From a virus, in the IMG/VR virus record IMGVR_UViG_3300035523_000153, positions 1 through 37,962 of that record: DNA of 37,962 nucleotides, one strand, 5' to 3'. A program made the position numbers and the translations under genes. The notes beneath the pieces are model-generated. The model saw nothing but the letters and a program-made list of their open reading frames with translations, did no database searches and was not told where the DNA came from. Shown in pieces: positions 1-36,666 of this stretch. Numbering within the stretch: the stretch's first letter is position 1; every line of letters begins with the position of its first letter.

Positions 1-1407
1 TCATAAATGTGTTTTGGCCTTGGGGCGCACGGTGATGACGTGCTTCAACCAGTTGTCCCAGCCGGGATTGTGCAGGTCCGCCACAAGGTATCGGCCGTGT
101 ACCGTGAGCCGCATGCAGAGCAGCCGGAGCGCCGAGTTCTTTTCCCCAATGCTCAGGCCTGGCCATGCAGCCTTCAGATTCCGGGCAAACTCGGGAGTGA
201 GACCGGAGACCGGAGCGTCTATCAGAGCGAGTTCCGCATCCAGCGTCCTGATGATCTGGATGTATTCCTCGCTTGTCATCTGTCCCGCGCGGTAGATCAC
301 TGTTTCCCGCGCCTTCGCAGTTTGGATCTCTGAGATCCTCTCGGCGCTTGGAGCGTCGTGGCTGACCGGTCGAACCACGGGCTGCGCTGTGGACGTAGCA
401 TGGACGACCCTCCGGGTGATCTCTTCCAGGGCATCTACCCGTAGCATCGGAGCCCTGCAGCGTACCCCTTCATTGGGATAGGCCACTCCGTTGCATCGGA
501 CGTAGGCGTAGGTCCCGCAGCTGCGCTTCATGTTGACGCGATGAAACCCTTCGCCGCAGCGTCCACAGACCAAGAGCCCTTGCCATGGGAAGAACGTCCC
601 GTGTGGGCCCTGCACCTTTCGATTGACAGATAGTCGCAGGTCTACTTGCTGAACCAGTTCCATCGGGAGAGTAGACCCCCACTTCCATTCCAGCACGCCG
701 CGTGAACCCCAGGGTAAGGCTCCTCGATATGCAGGGTGGTTCAGGATCTTCCTGACCACGTTCATGTGCCAGACCTCACCGCCGCGGACAGTTGGCACGC
801 CCTCAGCGCTCAGGATCTCGGCGATCCTTCGGGTGCTGACGCCGGCGGAGTACATGTCGAAGATGCGGCGCAAGATCGCGATCCTGACTGGATTGCGCAC
901 CGGACGGCCGTCCTCCAGGCTCCAGCCATACGGCACGGTGCCGCCTGGCCATTTGCCCTGGTCGTAGATCTCGCGGTGAGCTGCCTTCACGCGTTGGCTG
1001 ATCAGCCGCAGTTCCAATTGGGCGAATGCGGCCCGAACATGGAGCATCGCCTCGCCCTGGGGCGTGGAGAGGTCGAGCGGCTCTGCAACGGCGATCGCAG
1101 TGACGTGCGCCTTCTCGAATAGACGGACCATGGCCGCCATATCGTAGACGCTACGACTGAGACGGTCCCAGGCAACGAACAGAACGGCCTGAACAGATCC
1201 GTCCAGGGCGCTCCTGAGCATCCGGTCCAGCTCCGGGCGCTCCTGCCCCGTTTTGGCCGTCTCTACATCTTGGTAGACATGCTCCGGCGGGACGTTGTAT
1301 CCAAGGCGAGTAGCCTCTTCCTGGCACCTGGCCATCTGTGCGTCAAGGGAGTAGCCGTGACGCTCTTGCTCGACGGTAGAGACGCGGATGTAGATGGCCG
1401 CCGTCAT
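1..1407 (-). CDS. int: Large serine recombinase (phage integrase)
   Basis: 468-residue site-specific recombinase expected to integrate and excise the phage DNA through a covalent phosphoserine intermediate. The N-terminal resolvase domain (about 1-145) has the motif YIRVST with catalytic Ser10, plus DRLSR at 81-85. A recombinase domain follows at about 150-265, with the typical GTVPYGW at 157-163. A zinc ribbon has Cys281, Cys284, Cys305 and Cys317, and the remainder is helical. Length is at the compact end of the large serine integrases. Its ATG overlaps the stop of the upstream minus-strand ORF by four bases, so the two are probably translationally coupled. It lies at the edge of the window, as expected beside an attachment site, but no att site is visible. 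Family assignment is secure; the direction of the reaction and any directionality factor are unknown. Confidence 0.96.
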   Translation of the reverse strand: MTAAIYIRVSTVEQERHGYSLDAQMARCQEEATRLGYNVPPEHVYQDVETAKTGQERPELDRMLRSALDGSVQAVLFVAWDRLSRSVYDMAAMVRLFEKAHVTAIAVAEPLDLSTPQGEAMLHVRAAFAQLELRLISQRVKAAHREIYDQGKWPGGTVPYGWSLEDGRPVRNPVRIAILRRIFDMYSAGVSTRRIAEILSAEGVPTVRGGEVWHMNVVRKILNHPAYRGALPWGSRGVLEWKWGSTLPMELVQQVDLRLSVNRKVQGPHGTFFPWQGLLVCGRCGEGFHRVNMKRSCGTYAYVRCNGVAYPNEGVRCRAPMLRVDALEEITRRVVHATSTAQPVVRPVSHDAPSAERISEIQTAKARETVIYRAGQMTSEEYIQIIRTLDAELALIDAPVSGLTPEFARNLKAAWPGLSIGEKNSALRLLCMRLTVHGRYLVADLHNPGWDNWLKHVITVRPKAKTHL

Positions 1408-2935: not shown

Positions 2936-3008
2936 GGACACGTAGCTCAGTTGGTAGAGCACCACCCGGTGGTAGGCGACGGAGGTTCGACCCCTCCTGT
3001 GTCCACCA
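2936..3008 (+). tRNA. tRNA with collapsed anticodon loop, encoded CCA
   Basis: A near-perfect tRNA outside the anticodon: acceptor GGACACG/TGTGTCC, D-arm GCTC-AGTTGGTA-GAGC (2945-2960), T-arm GGAGG-TTCGACC-CCTCC (2981-2997), discriminator A and genome-encoded CCA (3006-3008). The anticodon stem CCACC (2962-2966) meets its partner GGTGG (2968-2972) with a single base between them instead of seven. The variable region that follows is 8 nt. An alternative reading opens inner pairs to expose CCG (2966-2968) but leaves only a 3-bp stem and no U33. Therefore no amino acid is assigned. It may be a pseudogene, a specialised phage tRNA or an RNA with a non-decoding role. Confidence 0.7.
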
Positions 3009-3341: not shown

Positions 3342-3422
3342 CCTGGGGTAGCGCAGCGGTAGCGCACGGAGGGTTTCCTTTCCCCTCCGAGGTCGCGGGT
3401 TCGAGTCCCGCCCCTGGGGCCA
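3342..3422 (+). tRNA. tRNA with enlarged anticodon arm, encoded CCA
   Basis: Acceptor CCTGGGG/CCCTGGG (3342-3348 with 3412-3418, two wobble pairs), D-arm GCGC-AGCGGTA-GCGC (3351-3365), T-arm GCGGG-TTCGAGT-CCCGC (3395-3411), variable AGGTC, discriminator G and encoded CCA (3420-3422). The anticodon stem CGGAG/CTCCG encloses 13 nt instead of 7. With two extra pairs this becomes a 7-bp stem (3367-3373 with 3383-3389) and the 9-nt loop TTTCCTTTC. The central triplet CCT, preceded by T, would decode AGG (Arg), but this assignment is tentative. The six-base excess mirrors the six-base deficit in the tRNA at 2936. Confidence 0.72.
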
Positions 3423-5543: not shown

Positions 5544-5897
5544 GTGGCACAACAGACGAGCGATAGCGGGCGGTCAGGCCGAATCGCAATCAGCAGGCGG
5601 CTTTATGACGGCTTCGCGTTGAGGTTGACCAGCACGGAGCTGGTCGTGTACGTTGCCCTGGTCCGCCATTGGGATCCGATGTCCCGCGTCAGCGCGCCCA
5701 GCTTCGCCGAGATCGGCCGCGAACTGGGCGTGGATCGCGGGACGGTTATTCGGGCGATGCGGACCCTGGAGGCCCTTGGCCTCGCGCGCAAGACCATCCG
5801 GACGGGCGAGGATGGCGGGTCCCTGTCGAACCAGTATGCCCTCCCCCTTGAAGACCAGGCTGATGACGCGGAGGCGGCAAGTGGCAGACAGGCCTAA
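5544..5897 (+). CDS. Winged helix-turn-helix protein (replication-initiator type)
   Basis: 117 residues. The start is GTG 5544 because GGAGG at 5532-5536 lies seven bases before it. Residues about 20-105 form a helix-turn-helix unit like those at the N-termini of phage replication proteins (HTH_36-type): SAPSFAEIGRELGVDRGTVI, then RAMRTLEALGLARKTI, then a wing. It lacks the C-terminal loader region of the next gene and may bind DNA alone or with it. Its 3' end overlaps the GTG start of the next protein. The tandem arrangement suggests duplication of an initiator domain. Confidence 0.78.
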   Translation: MAQQTSDSGRSGRIAISRRLYDGFALRLTSTELVVYVALVRHWDPMSRVSAPSFAEIGRELGVDRGTVIRAMRTLEALGLARKTIRTGEDGGSLSNQYALPLEDQADDAEAASGRQA

Positions 5898-6969
5898 CCA
5901 CAGGCGCCCTGGCTTCTTCTGGGCGCACAACTACGTCTACGACCGGTATTGGCGCGAGCTGGGCTGCATCGTCATGGGCGTGTACTGCGGACTTGCGCGC
6001 CACGCCGACAACGACGGTCGAACGTGCTTCCCGAGCTACGCCAGGCTGGGGCGCGAGCTGAAGCTGGACCGGAGGACTGTTCAGCGCGCCATTGACACCC
6101 TGGAGGCCAACGAGCTGATCTCCCGCGAGCGCCGTTTGGATGACACGGGGGCCAATTCCAGCAACGGTTTCAGCATCCTCTTCCATCCGAGCCTGGCGAT
6201 GGGCGATGTGGACGAAGACGCGCCTCCCATTGTCCGCCCGCGGAGCCGTCAGGCGGTCACATCCAGCCCCGAGACTGATAGGCCGAAACCGCCAGAGGTG
6301 GCGGCACAGGACCGCTATCCCGGTTGTGATGGCGACACTCCCCCTATAGGCACAGGGCCTATAGGGGTGGCGGCACAGGACCTACACCCTATGGGCACAG
6401 GGCCTATAGGGGTGGCGGCACAGGACCTACACCCTATAGGCCCTGGTGCGCCGCTATATAAGGAAATGAACAAGACCCATGTAACAAGACCCAGTTATAA
6501 CCAGACATCCGGAGAGAGAGAGGCTCGTCCAAACCCCTCGGAACCCCCTCCCTCCGAATCATCTGAAACGGTCCGGATCTCGCGGATCGAAGACCTGAAG
6601 CTGACCGATGACCTCCTGGCCTGGGGGCTGGCCAACTGCCCCCGCCTGGCGGAGGAGGACCTCCGCGACGACTTCCTCAACTTCCAGCTCTACTCCGGCC
6701 ATCCGGCCGGGGTCACCGATTGGGCCAACCAGCTCCGCCTGTGGTGGCGCCGCCAGGAGACCCGCCGGAAGGAGGCCGGCGCTCCGGTCCTCACCGAGAT
6801 GCGCGGGCCAGCCACTCCGGTTGACCGTGATGCCCATCTCCGCCGGGAGTATGAGAGCTATCTCGGCGACCGGGAGACCCAGAACATCCAGAGGCGCGAC
6901 GTCTTCGGCCGCCCGCCGCTCCCCGTACTTGATTTCAACTCGTGGAAGGAGGAGCAGGGCCATGTCTGA
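5881..6969 (+). CDS. Replication initiator / replisome organiser (lambda O-like)
   Basis: 362 residues from GTG 5881; GGAGG at 5870-5874 fixes this start. The N-terminal winged helix (about 15-105: FPSYARLGRELKLDRRTVQR, then AIDTLEANELISRERR) is of the helicase-loader/initiator HTH type. A low-complexity Pro/Ser-rich linker (about 120-230) contains a 15-residue tandem repeat centred on GPIGVAAQDLHP, encoded by DNA full of CCTATAGG palindromes. The C-terminal part (about 240-300) has DDFLNFQLYSGHPAGVTDW and WWRRQETRRKE, resembling the DnaT/O-type C-terminal segment that contacts helicase or loader. No helicase or loader gene is seen in the window, so it presumably recruits host DnaB. Its stop lies inside the next gene (8-base overlap). 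Confidence 0.8.
   Translation: MADRPNHRRPGFFWAHNYVYDRYWRELGCIVMGVYCGLARHADNDGRTCFPSYARLGRELKLDRRTVQRAIDTLEANELISRERRLDDTGANSSNGFSILFHPSLAMGDVDEDAPPIVRPRSRQAVTSSPETDRPKPPEVAAQDRYPGCDGDTPPIGTGPIGVAAQDLHPMGTGPIGVAAQDLHPIGPGAPLYKEMNKTHVTRPSYNQTSGEREARPNPSEPPPSESSETVRISRIEDLKLTDDLLAWGLANCPRLAEEDLRDDFLNFQLYSGHPAGVTDWANQLRLWWRRQETRRKEAGAPVLTEMRGPATPVDRDAHLRREYESYLGDRETQNIQRRDVFGRPPLPVLDFNSWKEEQGHV
6341..6515. other. Putative replication origin inside the initiator gene
   Basis: CCTATAGG occurs at 6343-6350, 6358-6365, 6403-6410 and 6433-6440, with a one-base variant at 6388-6395. The first two lie in an 11-bp perfect inverted repeat (6341-6351 with 6357-6367). A 45-bp tandem unit (6349-6393, 6394-6438) carries them. 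A comparatively AT-rich stretch follows (about 6450-6515), unusual in this GC-rich genome. Iterons plus AT-rich DNA within the initiator gene is the lambda O arrangement. Confidence 0.6.
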
Positions 6970-13033: not shown

Positions 13034-13095
13034 GCAGGACGCGGGGAGTACAACGACAGGCGCTGAGCGAGGCGATGGCGTCAGAGGGAGCGGGC

Positions 13096-13296
13096 ATGGA
13101 TAGGGACCGGAGGGATCGCAAGGATCTGGAGGCAGATATCGACGTGGTGACGGCGCTTGTGCGTGAGCGGTTGGCGCTCGCCGTCGAGTGCGGGGAGACG
13201 GTGAGGGTGGAATTGCAGGTGGTGAAGGGCTCCGTTGAGACCGTTCGGCAGTACCGGGGAGTGGACCCCGTGCTGTTCCGCCGGCATCGCGGCTAG
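13096..13296 (+). CDS. Small hypothetical protein at end of early operon
   Basis: 66 residues from ATG 13096, which has GAGGGAG five bases upstream. A CTG at 13030 overlapping the previous stop and an ATG at 13075 are alternatives with a longer basic N-terminus. The sequence is charged and helical, then two strands (LALAVECGETVRVELQVVKG). No family is recognised. The stop (13294-13296) overlaps the -35 of the late promoter that follows, so the early operon ends here. Confidence 0.55.
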   Translation: MDRDRRDRKDLEADIDVVTALVRERLALAVECGETVRVELQVVKGSVETVRQYRGVDPVLFRRHRG

Positions 13297-13409
13297 ACGG
13301 CTTGCCCGCCAGCGTGGTAGGATGAGGCCAGAGACATAGGTAGGTCAGCGCCAGAGGTTTGACCCGGCGCGTTCTTCCCATTCGGGAGGGGCGCGCCGTT
13401 CGTGGTTTT
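13294..13409 (+). promoter_or_regulatory. Late-gene leader, copy 1 (promoter, core box, hairpin)
   Basis: TAGACG (13294-13299), 18-bp spacer, extended -10 TGG-TAGGAT (13318-13323). The invariant 23-nt box (13348-13370) is a GCGCC stem, AGAGGTTTGACCC loop and GGCGC stem. The latter GGCGC also starts a 14-bp hairpin (13366-13379 with 13384-13397, loop ATTC), followed by GTTCGTGGTTTT (13398-13409). The two stems cannot form together. It heads the terminase/portal unit. Confidence 0.75.
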
Positions 13410-13431
13410 GGGGGCGGGATCGAGCGTGCAG

Positions 13432-14172
13432 ATGGAAAGCGTTGCAGGAAATTGCAGGGGAAAGAGACCGGTTCATCTAACAGGAAAGCAGGTGGCCGCC
13501 GCGGCCCTGGTCGCCGCCGATCACCTGAGCGATGAGCGGATCGCCGCCCAGATAGGCGTCTCCGTGCGCACGCTGTACGGGTGGAAGCGCCGAACGGAGT
13601 TCGCGGACGAGGTGGACCGCATCCGCGATGAGCTGCGCGCCAACGCCGTGGCCACCGGCATCGCCCTGCGCGAGCAACGACTCCTCGACATTGACTGGCG
13701 GCGCGGCCTCCTGAAACAGATCGTCCGGGCCAGGGCGCAGAGCGGGAGCGTTCCCGCCAGCCAGGGAGGGGACACCGGCCTGATGGTGCGCAAGGTCGCC
13801 ATCGTCAAGGTCTACGAAGCCCCTGAACTCGCAGCACCGTACATCGAGGACGGCGACACGCCGAGCGCCGATGAGTTTGCCGCCATGGTCTCCGAGCAGC
13901 TCGCGGCGCAGATCTCGGCGACCGTCAGCATCACGCCGACGAAGGTGACGGTGGAAGTCGAGGAGTTCGCCCTGGATACCGGGCTGCTGTCCGCATGGGA
14001 CAAGTTGGAGCAGGCCGCCGCCGCCGAGACCGGCGGCCGGGTGGAGAAGCACGTCGTGGCGCACAGCAGGGCCGGCGAACCCGATTACGACGCCCTGACG
14101 GACGAGGAGCTTGATGAGCTGGACCGCCTCACGGCCATCGCCGAAGGGCGCGCCGACAAACAGGGAGGTTAA
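13432..14172 (+). CDS. terS: Terminase small subunit
   Basis: 246 residues. After a short leader, residues about 17-55 form a helix-turn-helix (AAALVAADHLSDERIAAQIG, then VSVRTLYGWKRRTEFADEVD) of the type that small terminases use to recognise packaging DNA. The central helical part would oligomerise. The C-terminus is acidic (DYDALTDEELDELDRLTAIA) and would contact the large subunit. ATG 13432 has only a weak purine-rich stretch upstream; GTG 13426 is an alternative. It lies directly behind leader copy 1 and overlaps the large subunit by 59 bases. The assignment rests on the HTH and position. Confidence 0.82.
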   Translation: MESVAGNCRGKRPVHLTGKQVAAAALVAADHLSDERIAAQIGVSVRTLYGWKRRTEFADEVDRIRDELRANAVATGIALREQRLLDIDWRRGLLKQIVRARAQSGSVPASQGGDTGLMVRKVAIVKVYEAPELAAPYIEDGDTPSADEFAAMVSEQLAAQISATVSITPTKVTVEVEEFALDTGLLSAWDKLEQAAAAETGGRVEKHVVAHSRAGEPDYDALTDEELDELDRLTAIAEGRADKQGG

Positions 14173-18625: not shown

Positions 18626-18745
18626 TTGACGAACAGGCGTGCCGTGTGATACGATAGAGCCAGAGACATAGCGCTTGATGCGCCAGAGGTTTGACCCGGC
18701 GCCTGCCCCTACTGAGGGGGCAGGCGCCGTTTGTCGTTTTGGAGG
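18626..18745 (+). promoter_or_regulatory. Late-gene leader, copy 2 (promoter, core box, hairpin)
   Basis: TTGACG (18626-18631), 18-bp spacer, extended -10 TGA-TACGAT (18650-18655). The invariant box is at 18680-18702. The hairpin GGCGCCTGCCCC/GGGGCAGGCGCC (18698-18709 with 18717-18728) is perfect over 12 bp, followed by GTTTGTCGTTTT and then GGAGG (18741-18745), the ribosome site of the capsid protease. Distance from -10 end to box start is 25 nt, as in copy 1. Confidence 0.8.
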
Positions 18746-18753
18746 TCCCGTAT

Positions 18754-20130
18754 ATGGACAACCTGGTGATCCACCCGAGCGCGGTAGGCGTGCTGTCCGG
18801 CCCCTGGGCCATCGAGGAGCGCTACGCGGCCATCGCCGAGGCGCGGCTATCGCGCGTCGATTGGTCCGCTCATATGGCCGCCTGGGAGGCAGCGCAGGCC
18901 GCTCGCGGAACCGTGGACCCAGCCGCGGACGCCAAGCCCTACGAGGTGGTCGACGGCGTGGCGATCCTTCAGCTCACCGGCCCGATGACCAAGGGCCTCA
19001 ACTCCTTCCAGGCGATGTTCGGAGGAACCTCCACGGTGGCGCTGCGCCGCTCCATCCGGCAGGCCGCGGCGGATCCCGACGTCAAGGCGATCCTCCTCAA
19101 CGTGGACAGCCCGGGCGGATCGGTTGACGGGACCGCGGCGTTGGCCGACGACGTGGCGGCCGCCGCGAAGAAGAAGCCCACCTGCGCCTACATCGACGGG
19201 CAGGGCTGTTCCGCCGCCTACTGGGTGGCGAGCCAGGCCACCCGGATCGACACCGGCCGCACCTCCATCGTCGGATCCATCGGCACCTACACGACGGTGG
19301 TCGACCAGTCGGCCTACGCCGAGAGCAAGGGCGTGAAGGTCCATGTCATCCGCGCCGGAACGCACAAGGGCGCGGGCGTGGCGGGCGCGCCGGTGACCGA
19401 CGAACAGCTCTCCGAGATCCAGGGCATGGTGGACGACATCAACGCCCAGTTCGAGGGCGGGGTCATGGGCGGCCGCAAGATGAACGCCCAGCAGCTCGCG
19501 GGCGCCAACGACGGACGCGTGTTCGTGGGCCGCAAGGCCCTGAAGGCCGGCCTGGTGGACGGGATCGGCTCGTTCGACCAGGCCCTGAACCGCCTGCGGG
19601 CGTACAACCCGGACAGGCCAGAGACAGCGCCCACGCGTGGCGCAAGGGAGGAAAACGGGATGACGTTCAAACAGCGCTTCCTCGCGCTGCTCAACGGCGA
19701 GGATGGCGACGAGGACGAGGGCGGGACGGACGCCACGGCGACCGCAACGCTGGCGGCTGGAACCATAGTGGCCGCGAGCGCCGAGCAGGCCGCCCTGGCG
19801 AAGCTCGGCGAGAAGTACCTGGCCCAGACGCGGGAAGCGGCCCAAGCGGCCTATGTCCGCGCCAAGGGGCAGGACGCCGCGAAGGACGACCGGTACAAGG
19901 CGCTTGGCTCCGCCTCGTTCGAGGATGCGACGCTCGCCGCCGGCCTCTACAACGAGATGGCGGACGCCAAGCTCGGCATCACGCCGGACAAGGGCGCCGA
20001 GCGCCAGACCACCGCCAGGGCCCTCCCGGGCGCTGGCAATGAGGCCGGTACGCTCAACGCGAAACCGGACCTCGAACCGAATGCGATCTACGACGATCGC
20101 AGGGCGGCCACGGCCGCGGGAGGCAAGTAG
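18754..20130 (+). CDS. Head maturation protease (S49/SppA type) with scaffold C-terminus
   Basis: 458 residues, first gene after leader copy 2 (GGAGG eight bases before ATG 18754). The S49 peptidase region is about 60-300: LTGPMTKG, then LLNVDSPGGSVDGTAALADD, the nucleophile region GQGCSAAYWVAS (Ser153) and THKGAG with a probable general-base Lys205. This is the lambda gpC-like protease that trims scaffold and portal during procapsid maturation. After an acidic linker (about 305-325), the C-terminal 156 residues form the scaffold, which also has its own start (19660). Confidence 0.92.
   Translation: MDNLVIHPSAVGVLSGPWAIEERYAAIAEARLSRVDWSAHMAAWEAAQAARGTVDPAADAKPYEVVDGVAILQLTGPMTKGLNSFQAMFGGTSTVALRRSIRQAAADPDVKAILLNVDSPGGSVDGTAALADDVAAAAKKKPTCAYIDGQGCSAAYWVASQATRIDTGRTSIVGSIGTYTTVVDQSAYAESKGVKVHVIRAGTHKGAGVAGAPVTDEQLSEIQGMVDDINAQFEGGVMGGRKMNAQQLAGANDGRVFVGRKALKAGLVDGIGSFDQALNRLRAYNPDRPETAPTRGAREENGMTFKQRFLALLNGEDGDEDEGGTDATATATLAAGTIVAASAEQAALAKLGEKYLAQTREAAQAAYVRAKGQDAAKDDRYKALGSASFEDATLAAGLYNEMADAKLGITPDKGAERQTTARALPGAGNEAGTLNAKPDLEPNAIYDDRRAATAAGGK
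19660..20130 (+). CDS. Nested capsid scaffold protein (Nu3-like)
   Basis: In-frame internal start ATG 19660 inside the protease gene, with GGGAGG (19646-19651) eight bases before it. The product is 156 residues beginning MTFKQRFLALLNGEDGDEDE, acidic, Ala-rich and helical, as expected of a scaffold that is made in excess of protease and shares its C-terminus. This matches lambda C/Nu3. The internal ribosome site is direct sequence evidence; independent expression is inferred. Confidence 0.72.
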   Translation: MTFKQRFLALLNGEDGDEDEGGTDATATATLAAGTIVAASAEQAALAKLGEKYLAQTREAAQAAYVRAKGQDAAKDDRYKALGSASFEDATLAAGLYNEMADAKLGITPDKGAERQTTARALPGAGNEAGTLNAKPDLEPNAIYDDRRAATAAGGK

Positions 20131-30963: not shown

Positions 30964-31326
30964 ATGGCAAGGCGGGTAGCGGACGGCGTGGAGACAGGCG
31001 ATGGCCCTCTCGACGTAGTAGCAAAGTGGAACGTGATGGTCGGCGCGATCAACGCGAACTTCGCGGAGATCTACCCGTTGAGGGCGGCGGCGACCCTGGA
31101 CTTCGCCAGCATTGCCGCTGGATCCGCCGCGGAACTCACCGTCACCGTGACCGGGGCCTCGGCGGGGAAGCCGGCGATCGCCAGCCCAGCGGCGGGTATC
31201 GAGGCGGGTCTGGTGTGGAGCGCGTGGGTATCCGCAGCGGACACGGTGCGGATCCGGGTGGCGAACGTCACGGCGGCGGCCATCGACCCGGCGTCGCGGG
31301 CCTGGTCGGTTGTTGCTTTCCCATAG
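30964..31326 (+). CDS. Small structural-like protein before fibre
   Basis: 120 residues, with a strong AGGAGGTAGGGG ribosome site. The first half is helical and includes WNVMVGAINANFAEIYPLRA, a pattern common in N-termini of short phage fibre or chaperone proteins. The second half is beta-rich (AGSAAELTVTVTGASAGKPA; SAADTVRIRVANVTAAAIDP). It ends six bases or less from the promoter of leader copy 3. It may be a short tail fibre or a fibre cap; no motif is diagnostic. Confidence 0.55.
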   Translation: MARRVADGVETGDGPLDVVAKWNVMVGAINANFAEIYPLRAAATLDFASIAAGSAAELTVTVTGASAGKPAIASPAAGIEAGLVWSAWVSAADTVRIRVANVTAAAIDPASRAWSVVAFP

Positions 31327-31435
31327 CGAACGACCTGTGATACAATTGGGGTGATACATAGCGCTTGTTGCGCCAGAGGTTTGACCCGGCGCCTATCCCC
31401 TTGCGGGGATGGGCGCCGTTTTCGCTTTTTGGAGG
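31317..31435 (+). promoter_or_regulatory. Late-gene leader, copy 3 (promoter, core box, hairpin)
   Basis: Extended -10 TGA-TACAAT (31341-31346); the -35 (TTTCCC, 31317-31322) is poor. The box at 31370-31392 is identical to copies 1 and 2. The hairpin GGCGCCTATCCCC/GGGGATGGGCGCC (31388-31400 with 31405-31417, one G-T pair, loop TTGC) is followed by GTTTTCGCTTTTT and GGAGG (31431-31435). This copy looks most like an intrinsic terminator. It precedes the fibre gene. Confidence 0.8.
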
Positions 31436-31441
31436 CATGTC

Positions 31442-33835
31442 GTGACGCGAAATCGTGTGAAGATCGCCCTAGCCTGGTGGGCTCTGCTGGTCGCATGTTG
31501 CGCTCGCTCGGCCGTGCAGTACCGACCGTCCGACCTGTCGCAGGATCCGACCTGGGCCTGGGTGTTGGGCGGCTGCCGGTTGGGCGCGAACGGGACCGGA
31601 AGCGTGCCCGGTCTGACGACCTACGGCATCACGGTCCAATCGCTCGGCAAGCCGGCTCCGGTGGCGTCCATCATTGGGACGGCGGGATCGGTATCGTACC
31701 GCTACCAGGTGACTTCCATTGCTGGCGGTCTGGAGACGACGGCGGCGACCGTGAATGTGACGACGGCTCCAACGGCGCTGACGACCTCCAATTACGTGCG
31801 CCTTTCGTGGCCCGTTGTGACCGGGGCGACTGCGTACCGGGTGTACCGATCGGCAATCGGTGGGACCGGCGACCTGCTGGGGGAAGTTGCCGCCACGGTC
31901 TACAGCGACAAGGGCGGCGTGACCCCTGTGGCAACGACGCACCCGCCGGCGGTAGACCAGACGGGGGCCGTGACGGCCGCGCGCATGACCGGGACATCCA
32001 GTGGGCCGGCGGCATCGCTGTCCGCCATTGGAGAGACGATTGCATACGACGAAGGCGGTTCACGCTGGGTTTCCAGCGTCGGCATTAACGCTCCTGGATT
32101 CGCCGGCGGTTGGTTCACGGGCTCGGGCTCCTCGCTAACGGGCGTGGTCCACTCCCTGTCGATACCCGGTTCCGTGATCTACTCGGTGGGCGCCGAGACA
32201 AACGGCACGGTGACGCTGACCCCGCAACCGCAGGCGGCTCGGGCGATGCTGGGGAATCATACCGCCGCGAGCGCCACGCCGACGTTTGCCGCGTTGACGG
32301 CGGCTGACCTTCCGACGACCGGCGTGCTGCCCTCATCGCTCACCGGCACGGGCACGGTTCCCGACGCGGCGATCCCGGCGACGATACCACGGCTGGCGTC
32401 TGCCACTGTGTTCAAACCCGCAAGCAACTCGACCACGGCGTTCCAAGTGCAGCCATCGGGGTCCACGACCCCAGTGTTCAACGTGGACACATCGCACAAC
32501 TGGGTCGGAATTGGCACGGCATCCCCCCAAGCGGTTGTCCACGCGGTGTCGCCGGGCGGGGTCTTGAAAACTGCTACAGGCGTACATGATGGGTTTTTCG
32601 CATCGTCGGCCGACGCGTCCGGCCAACTCGGCATAACGCTGGGATGGGCTGGCGGCAGCACGGTGAGCACTAGAGTTGGGGTGGTGTACTCCGGGGAGCA
32701 TGGGGTGTCCTGGAACCCCACAGTCATCAATCCCGAAGGAGGCGCTCCGGTCGGTATCGGAACATATACCCCCACCTACTCCCTCCACGTCGCGCCAACG
32801 ACAACGAACGCTACGGGCACCCTGTTCGTGGGCGATCCCACGTCAACGAAGGTTGTGGTCAAGGCGGGATCGGCCACAAATAACGGGGCGGCACGCTTGC
32901 AAGAATGGCAGGACAACGGCGGCTCGATGGTGGCCGGGATGGACGCATCGGGAATCCTGTCGCTGACGGCCATGAAGGCGACGGCGGGAGTTGCCGCCAG
33001 CTACGTATCTCTCGGCGCGGGAACGTCCGTCCAAACTGGCACCGCATCCAACGTTGCCCTCACCGTCCAGAACACGAACGCCTCTCCAACTGCGGATTTG
33101 ACGCAGTGGAAAGACCCGTCTGGCACCACGTTGTCGCGCATTGGGACTGACGGAATGTTCTCCGCGTCACAGCCGTCCCCAACTCTGTCTGCGGCGTCGT
33201 CTATAACATTCCGGCGCAACGTCTCCGGCACCTCATGCCCCACGAGTACGAACGTTGGCAAGCTGGCGTTTCAGGCGTACAACGGCAGTACATACCCAGA
33301 CTCCGCTTACATTCAGGCGACCACGTCAGAGGCTCAGGACGGAACGCATGGCGGTACAAACCTGAGTTTCGCGGTGACGGCCCCCGGCTCTACGACTCCC
33401 GTCGAGCGCCTGAAACTCTCTGGCGGGACGGCCACTCTAAGTGGGCTCCTGATCCCGGATGGCTCCGATACACGCGACCTTGGCGCCTTGGACAGGCGCT
33501 GGAAGACAGCCTATCTGGACAACGTTGGCACCGCCGTGGCCGCGAAGACTGCATCCTACACCATCGTCAACGAAACGCTCGTGACCTGCAACGCTGCGGC
33601 CGGAGCGACGATCACCCTCCCTGCGGCCAACTACCTCGGCGCTGGCAACTCCCGCCACGTCGTCATCGTCAACACTGGCGCCACTGGCACGATCACCGTC
33701 GCTCGGGCGGGCACGGACACGATCAACGAAACCGGAGCGTGGGGGGCAACGACCCGCACGCTCACCGCCCAAGGCTCAACAATCACCCTCGACAGTGACG
33801 GCGTAAGCGCCTGGTACGTCACGTCCAGCAAGTAA
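31442..33835 (+). CDS. Long tail fibre protein with hydrophobic N-terminus
   Basis: 797 residues from GTG 31442, six bases after GGAGG of leader 3. The body is a repeated beta-rich fibre (FAALTAADLPTTGVLPSSLT; TSHNWVGIGTASPQAVVHA; RLQEWQDNGGSMVAGMDASG) with Thr/Ala/Gly-rich strands and a C-terminal part (LDRRWKTAYLDNVGTAVAAK) of the type seen near fibre tips. The N-terminus (KIALAWWALLVACCARSAVQ) looks like a signal peptide or lipoprotein leader, unusual for a virion fibre. Either the true start is downstream, or the fibre is secreted or anchored. Receptor-binding role inferred. Confidence 0.75.
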   Translation: MTRNRVKIALAWWALLVACCARSAVQYRPSDLSQDPTWAWVLGGCRLGANGTGSVPGLTTYGITVQSLGKPAPVASIIGTAGSVSYRYQVTSIAGGLETTAATVNVTTAPTALTTSNYVRLSWPVVTGATAYRVYRSAIGGTGDLLGEVAATVYSDKGGVTPVATTHPPAVDQTGAVTAARMTGTSSGPAASLSAIGETIAYDEGGSRWVSSVGINAPGFAGGWFTGSGSSLTGVVHSLSIPGSVIYSVGAETNGTVTLTPQPQAARAMLGNHTAASATPTFAALTAADLPTTGVLPSSLTGTGTVPDAAIPATIPRLASATVFKPASNSTTAFQVQPSGSTTPVFNVDTSHNWVGIGTASPQAVVHAVSPGGVLKTATGVHDGFFASSADASGQLGITLGWAGGSTVSTRVGVVYSGEHGVSWNPTVINPEGGAPVGIGTYTPTYSLHVAPTTTNATGTLFVGDPTSTKVVVKAGSATNNGAARLQEWQDNGGSMVAGMDASGILSLTAMKATAGVAASYVSLGAGTSVQTGTASNVALTVQNTNASPTADLTQWKDPSGTTLSRIGTDGMFSASQPSPTLSAASSITFRRNVSGTSCPTSTNVGKLAFQAYNGSTYPDSAYIQATTSEAQDGTHGGTNLSFAVTAPGSTTPVERLKLSGGTATLSGLLIPDGSDTRDLGALDRRWKTAYLDNVGTAVAAKTASYTIVNETLVTCNAAAGATITLPAANYLGAGNSRHVVIVNTGATGTITVARAGTDTINETGAWGATTRTLTAQGSTITLDSDGVSAWYVTSSK

Positions 33836-36441: not shown

Positions 36442-36666
36442 ATGGGAACCGAGACACCGCTGCTGATCCCCGAATGCAGGACCTGCCCGGTCCTCGAGCG
36501 CAACCGCGAGCTGCAGCGCCAGCTCGCAGAGGCCCAGGGCAACGCTACGGCCGCCGCCGGCATCGCAGCTTCCGCCCTCGAGGGGATCGCCACGCACGCT
36601 GACGAGCGCGCTTCTGCCGTTACTCGAGGGAGACGCCGGCGGGCACAGGGAGGGGGCATCGAATGA
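36442..36666 (+). CDS. Small hypothetical protein before endolysin
   Basis: 74 residues; a near-perfect GAGGTCACCTA ribosome region precedes ATG 36442. It has a Cys pair (CRTC, about 12-15), a helix (LERNRELQRQLAEAQGNATA) and a basic C-terminus (RGRRRRAQGGG). It ends in an ATGA overlap with the endolysin. There is no lipobox or clear membrane segment. Unknown role within the lysis cluster. Confidence 0.55.
   Translation: MGTETPLLIPECRTCPVLERNRELQRQLAEAQGNATAAAGIAASALEGIATHADERASAVTRGRRRRAQGGGIE

Follow-up and report, generated by a model that had tools for sequence, protein, structure and literature searches.

An identical 23-nt box overlapping a terminator-like hairpin heads three late operons of a temperate phage and may form a shared transcription attenuator

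Three late operons of a temperate phage begin with leaders that carry the same 23-nt box, and the end of this box is also the foot of a terminator-like hairpin. We estimate at about 0.5 the probability that each leader is a local transcription attenuator common to the three operons. Late control in temperate phages is best known from processive antiterminators such as Q, from activators, and from new sigma factors. If the attenuator reading is true, late timing would be set by a repeated local attenuator, with one RNA box serving three operons as a compact and transferable RNA switch, and the box would be a lead to the RNA-binding factor behind it. Moreover, this regulatory element would come from phages linked to Armatimonadota, which are little studied.

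The window, i.e. the whole stretch of DNA analysed here, comprises the 37,962 bases of a viral record. Its genes read as those of a temperate siphophage, among them a serine integrase (1-1407, minus strand) and a replication initiator (5653-6969). The plus strand carries, in order, the terminase subunits, portal, head protease, major head protein, tape measure, and endolysin. The portal protein is rare, with one weak match among 50,697 phage records. It is present in 10 of 291 genomes from the phylum of an Armatimonadetes-labelled MAG, and 792 genomes of two other phyla contain no convincing match. Because of this distribution, the host is likely a member of Armatimonadota, with the caveat that phage contigs can be misbinned. 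Tandem 45-nt repeats (6294-6431, two copies 98% alike and one partial) lie inside the replication-initiator frame and are probably iterons of a replication origin. Two tRNA features lie opposite to minus-strand reading frames, one being a tRNA-like gene whose anticodon is abnormal in having two bases (2936-3008) and the other a tRNA-Arg(CCT) (3342-3422).

The box, GCGCCAGAGGTTTGACCCGGCGC, is found unchanged in three places, as the initial annotation had stated, and the next best match on either strand of the window has 7 mismatches. The copies head the packaging unit (copy 1), the head/tail unit (copy 2), and the distal/lysis unit (copy 3). The extended -10 element that had been proposed ahead of copy 1 is also present, ending at 13323 with 24 nt between it and the box. 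The elements from promoter to box are as follows.

13294-13323, plus strand: late promoter 1, with -35-like TAGACG, an 18-nt spacer and extended -10 TGGTAGGAT, found by the pattern TGNTANNAT and the three-copy alignment
13331-13339, plus strand: conserved transcript start of copy 1, GAGACATAG, from the alignment
13348-13370, plus strand: box copy 1, exact repeat, predicted to fold at -10.2 kcal/mol into a bulged stem-loop, GCGCC.A.G.A.GGU-UUG-ACCC-GGCGC
18626-18655, plus strand: late promoter 2, with TTGACG, 18 nt and TGATACGAT, found by a promoter scan and the pattern TGNTANNAT
18663-18671, plus strand: conserved transcript start of copy 2, GAGACATAG, from the alignment
18680-18702, plus strand: box copy 2, exact repeat
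31317-31346, plus strand: late promoter 3, with a weak -35 and TGATACAAT, found by a promoter scan and the pattern TGNTANNAT
31353-31361, plus strand: conserved transcript start of copy 3, GATACATAG, from the alignment
31370-31392, plus strand: box copy 3, exact repeat

Judged from the sequences, the identity of the boxes is not the trace of a recent duplication, because their flanks have diverged. The 13 inner invariant bases suggest that the box is read by a protein or an RNA.

The three extended -10 sequences are sigma70-like, and the gap between them and the box is 24, 24, and 23 nt in copies 1, 2, and 3, respectively. Counting both strands, the window holds the nine-letter pattern TGNTANNAT five times, three of them in the promoters described here. 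The transcript of copy 1 is predicted to start at ~13330, a position placed 7 nt past the -10. Between the -10 and the box, ACATAG is invariant in all three copies, and the next 8-9 bases differ in copy 1. Conservation in the three-copy alignment falls in the transcribed leader and not in the spacer between -35 and -10. The box sits at about +19 and is oriented with transcription in every copy.

This distribution of conserved bases bears on a lambda Q-like mechanism, in which a phage protein would bind DNA in the late promoters and make the polymerase resistant to terminators, the hairpin being a local terminator like tR'. The late genes of lambda have promoter pR' followed by terminator tR', with the Q gene just upstream. 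The window has the same layout of a late promoter and an immediate terminator-like hairpin before the late genes of a temperate phage, and copy 1 has a small ORF immediately before it, in the place that Q takes in lambda. However, there are three promoters here and one in lambda, and what is conserved lies in the RNA leader. Q depends on a binding element located between -35 and -10, plus a -10-like pause element (PMC6606751), whereas the three spacers here are unconserved except for their last few bases, no clear -10-like element is seen in the transcript start, and the upstream ORF matches no Q family. We regard a Q-like mechanism as the least probable of the readings considered here.

Downstream of each leader, the first gene starts shortly after the hairpin.

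13426-14172, plus strand: terminase small subunit, starting at GTG 13426 or ATG 13432, with PHROG matches to the ORF 13402-14172
18754-20130, plus strand: head maturation protease, first gene of the head/tail unit (PHROG 53, E 3.5e-72)
31442-33835, plus strand: 797-residue late protein, first gene of the third unit (ORF 31409-33835), with the endolysin after it at 36663

No promoter-like site was found between hairpin and start codon, a gap of only some 20-30 nt, so a transcript started at the late promoters has to run through the hairpin before it reaches the genes. The 797-residue protein has no PHROG or Pfam match and no match in the 50,697 phage records; its N-terminus resembles a signal peptide by eye.

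The hairpins and the T-rich tracts that follow them are listed below.

13365-13398, plus strand: hairpin of copy 1, 15 bp, taking CGGCGC from the box, with a terminator score of 7.8, weaker than copies 2 and 3
13399-13418, plus strand: interrupted T-tract of copy 1, TTCGTGGTTTT, then a G-rich ribosome-binding region
18697-18729, plus strand: hairpin of copy 2, 14 bp, terminator-like, score 38.0
18730-18745, plus strand: T-tract of copy 2, TTTGTCGTTTT, and GGAGG
31387-31418, plus strand: hairpin of copy 3, 14 bp, terminator-like, score 40.9, the best of the window
31419-31435, plus strand: T-tract of copy 3, TTTTCGCTTTTT, and GGAGG

The hairpin described earlier in copy 1 is therefore present, with its extent corrected from 14 bp at 13366-13397 to 15 bp at 13365-13398. 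The foot of each hairpin is CGGCGC, the final six bases of the box, and pairs 1-6 are invariant across the three copies. Above the foot, both partners change at pair 7 (G-C/C-G), pair 9 (U-G/G-C/A-U), pair 10 (C-G/U-A), and pair 12 (U-A/C-G), and one partner changes at pairs 8, 11, and 14, with pairing kept in every case. These compensatory changes, from three sequences, are good evidence that the RNA hairpin is maintained. In comparison with dinucleotide shuffles, all three hairpins are unusually stable (z -6.2 to -7.0, none of 200 shuffles as stable).

Each hairpin has the GC-rich stem and following T-rich tract of an intrinsic terminator. With a d'Aubenton-type score applied to 375 stems of at least 7 bp on both strands of the window, only four stems score above 0, and copies 3, 2, and 1 rank first, second, and fourth. 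No strong terminator is predicted in the late region outside these leaders. The hairpins may stop transcription, with the qualification that the T-tracts of all three copies are interrupted and copy 1 scores weakly.

The same conservation bears on whether the box is a DNA operator at which a phage repressor or activator, bound immediately past the late promoters, acts as a roadblock in the manner of mycobacteriophage stoperators. The fixed position at about +19 in a single orientation would suit such a site; a temperate phage with a serine integrase must keep its late promoters silent, and asymmetric operators that stop elongation exist (PMC9283540). An operator would, however, leave aside that the ends of the box coincide with the foot of an RNA hairpin, that its first five bases are complementary to this foot, and that the 3' arm GCGCCG, which lies outside the box, is likewise conserved. 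There are also only three sites, none of them at early genes. We consider a DNA operator very unlikely.

The box can form a structure that competes with the hairpin. Its start, GCGCC, is complementary to its end, GGCGC, which is also the foot of the next hairpin, and both pairings of GGCGC, with its own GCGCC or with the downstream arm, were recovered by folding in all three copies, as had been proposed for copy 1. By itself the box folds into the bulged stem-loop at -10.2 kcal/mol, which is modestly unusual (z -2.6, 3 of 200 shuffles as good). Its predicted apical loop, UUG, does not vary either, although pairing by itself would not require this. In this GC-rich window, 5 nt complementary to the foot can be found in the preceding 50 nt for 19% of stems of at least 8 bp; the a-a'-a geometry carries weight because it is kept in three otherwise diverged leaders, not because of any one copy.

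The antiterminator-like and terminator-like folds exclude each other through the bases they have in common, GGCGC in all three copies. The box stem-loop with the upper hairpin and the full terminator have predicted energies of -25.2 and -30.4 kcal/mol in copy 1, -26.9 and -33.6 kcal/mol in copy 2, and -24.8 and -31.5 kcal/mol in copy 3. The two states are only 5-7 kcal/mol apart, and a ligand that contributed this much would shift the equilibrium. When the RNA is folded stepwise, box stem-loop and upper hairpin exist side by side up to the point at which the final 5-6 nt of the 3' arm are added.

These observations suggest how the attenuator may work. Host RNA polymerase would start at the sigma70-type promoter and transcribe the box first and the hairpin next. 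Unless a factor intervenes, the 3' arm would invade the box stem-loop to give the full 14-15 bp hairpin beside the T-tract, and most polymerases would stop ahead of the gene. Late in infection, a phage (or host) factor would hold the box as a stem-loop; the hairpin would then retain only its upper 8-9 bp, 6 nt from the T-tract, and transcription would continue. Since all three units carry an identical box, one factor would open the packaging, head/tail, and lysis genes together. The box, the hairpin variation, the predicted energies, the promoter match, and the gene context are observed directly. The attenuator proposed in the initial annotation holds up in part: its promoter, leader, mutually exclusive hairpins, and terminator-like hairpin are seen in all three copies, and the compensatory changes and closely spaced energies agree with it. 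Termination, the start sites, the factor, and the timing are inferred. As natural copies with identical boxes and different upper stems are at hand, the idea is directly testable in vitro.

The full-length fold adds a pairing between CCAGA of the box and UUUGG of the ribosome-binding region, in which the T-tract is also involved, and effects on translation are possible. Such a fold would suit a structured 5' end with a role in mRNA protection or translational tuning of the late genes rather than in switching, the T-rich tract then being just an open spacer. The imperfect T-tracts and the location of the hairpin near GGAGG in all copies are compatible with this idea. It leaves the invariant 23-nt box and the box stem-loop unexplained, however; copies 2 and 3 are the top terminators of the window, and in copy 1 the CCAGA pairing region is in a different register. 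We therefore consider a structured 5' end unlikely, if less so than the other alternatives to attenuation.

The box RNA may instead be a processive antitermination signal (put- or nut-like), loaded onto the polymerase to pass this and later terminators, with the hairpin as part of the signal or as the first terminator passed. The leader is a sequence-specific phage RNA of ~70 nt just downstream of a promoter, with two stem-loops, as are HK022 put RNAs (PMC9378689), which are implicated in read-through, and operons of 5-13 kb follow each copy. The two stems of put are independent and compatible with each other, and put acts without a dedicated factor (PMC9378689), whereas the box stem-loop and the hairpin here exclude each other and cannot both fully form because they have bases in common. 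Within the late units themselves no other strong terminator is predicted, which would leave processivity little to do. A processive signal is, in our view, distinctly unlikely.

The attenuator reading finds its closest analogues in two bacterial systems. In the ANTAR leaders of nasF, amiE, and eut, as here, an antiterminator overlaps the terminator foot, shortens the terminator, and parts it from the U-tract, and the element is common to several operons (four in eut). A stabilised box would leave a shortened stem apart from the T-tract, as the model for ANTAR and CAT-domain antiterminators has it (PMC3369936; PMC9981650). ANTAR leaders have two stem-loops with A1 and G4 in the loops (PMC3369936), whereas the phage leaders have one constant bulged stem-loop with the loop UUG, lacking A1/G4, and no constant second one; an upstream GCGC hairpin is absent in copy 1. 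A search of the window for ANTAR proteins gave no match, and the control genomes likewise gave none. The RAT elements of the BglG-LicT-SacY family share with the box a conserved stem-loop whose stem is asymmetrically interrupted and whose end also forms the base of an intrinsic terminator. This agreement is one of geometry only, and RAT elements belong to sugar operons rather than phage late operons. The window contains no CAT_RBD protein (PF03123), a family matched in 4 of 14 control genomes; a protein of the host may still act in this way. With Rfam (4227 models) at the gathering cut-off, only two tRNAs are found in the window, and a permissive search of leader 2 gave sub-threshold hairpins only. 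By analogy, the element would work like a RAT- or ANTAR-type attenuator while meeting neither definition.

If there is a dedicated factor, it may belong to an undescribed family of phage RNA-binding protein that reads the bulged stem-loop and opens three late operons by local attenuation, unlike Q, N, put, or an alternative sigma factor. This is a tentative proposal that we hold to be doubtful. No RNA-binding antiterminator family is recognisable among the early genes. By position, a 72-residue ORF directly upstream of copy 1 (13078-13296, plus strand) is a weak candidate for the trans-factor. It matches no significant family, with a sub-threshold Pfam match only, and a single-sequence model predicts a helix and a beta-hairpin at low confidence (pLDDT 70, pTM 0.41). 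An RNA target for the box loop was also considered and set aside; the complement of the loop is absent elsewhere in the window except, at 2 mismatches, opposite the T-arm of the phage's own tRNA. The T-arm strand of the odd tRNA of the phage (2981-2993) matches the box loop at 11 of 13 bases, probably by chance, and a tRNA-mimic reading was dropped, as the T-stem cannot form.

Searches for homologues indicate that the box is confined to this phage among the sequences covered. An exact 19-mer of the box is absent from viral contigs, and the box followed by TTTTGG is absent from genome contigs. The gapped box core with TTTTGGAGG occurs in nine contigs; in five of them AGAGGTTTGACCCGGC falls within the last part of a reading frame and the hairpin is missing, which was taken as coincidence. 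CCAGAGGTTTGACCNGG occurs in 10 contigs, none with a promoter or a terminator hairpin, and blastn against phages gave short chance matches only. The covariance search from the three copies that had been suggested was run with a model (R1) built from these three sequences only, and its E-values are rough. It gave no credible match in 52 loci, in seven genomes of other phyla, or in 291 genomes of the phylum of the relative described below, where hits of 26-29 bits are plain hairpins or apparently unrelated sequence. A lack of homologues in related phages had been named as evidence against the element. It applies in part: the box was not found elsewhere, and the closest available relatives have ~41-48% amino-acid identity in single proteins, one of them with the same layout in an unrelated sequence.

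That relative, L226, is identical over 7.5 kb to L068, a MAG contig binned with an Armatimonadota genome, and its portal and TerL are 46% and 41% identical to those of the phage. Ahead of its small terminase gene, at 1683-1800, are an extended -10 TGCTATCAT, a leader, a 16-18-bp hairpin, and GCTTTTTGG. The sequence of this leader is unrelated to the box leaders of the window. To judge from these sequences, the layout of promoter, terminator, and terminase recurs in L226 and the box does not. A possible anti-hairpin in L226 (GCGTT/AACGC), which may lie partly upstream of its start site, is not counted as a second example because 23% of shuffled leaders have one. The box was not found in the portal relatives. 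Those from Armatimonadota (G033, G052, G016, G027, and others) have no comparable terminase leader except G008, and TerL relatives in the viral and genome collections have no repeated unit of promoter, box, and hairpin.

Terminator-like hairpins just upstream of terminase are common among TerL relatives, 2.6-fold enriched over the rest of the loci, which also speaks for a structured 5' end. This enrichment means that part of the layout is ordinary; what sets these leaders apart is that the box is repeated and overlaps the hairpin.

Several hairpins were seen in these relatives. The one before the small terminase gene of L226 comes with CTTTTTGG. Proteobacterial prophages (L146, L205, L164, L136, L057, and L079) often have a GC-rich hairpin and then TTTTCGTTTC or a similar sequence shortly upstream of TerL, with no Rfam match. 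On the reverse strand of the portal relative L259 (G251), three terminator-like hairpins of unlike sequence are found at 1702, 3587, and 5503, apparently each shortly before a gene.
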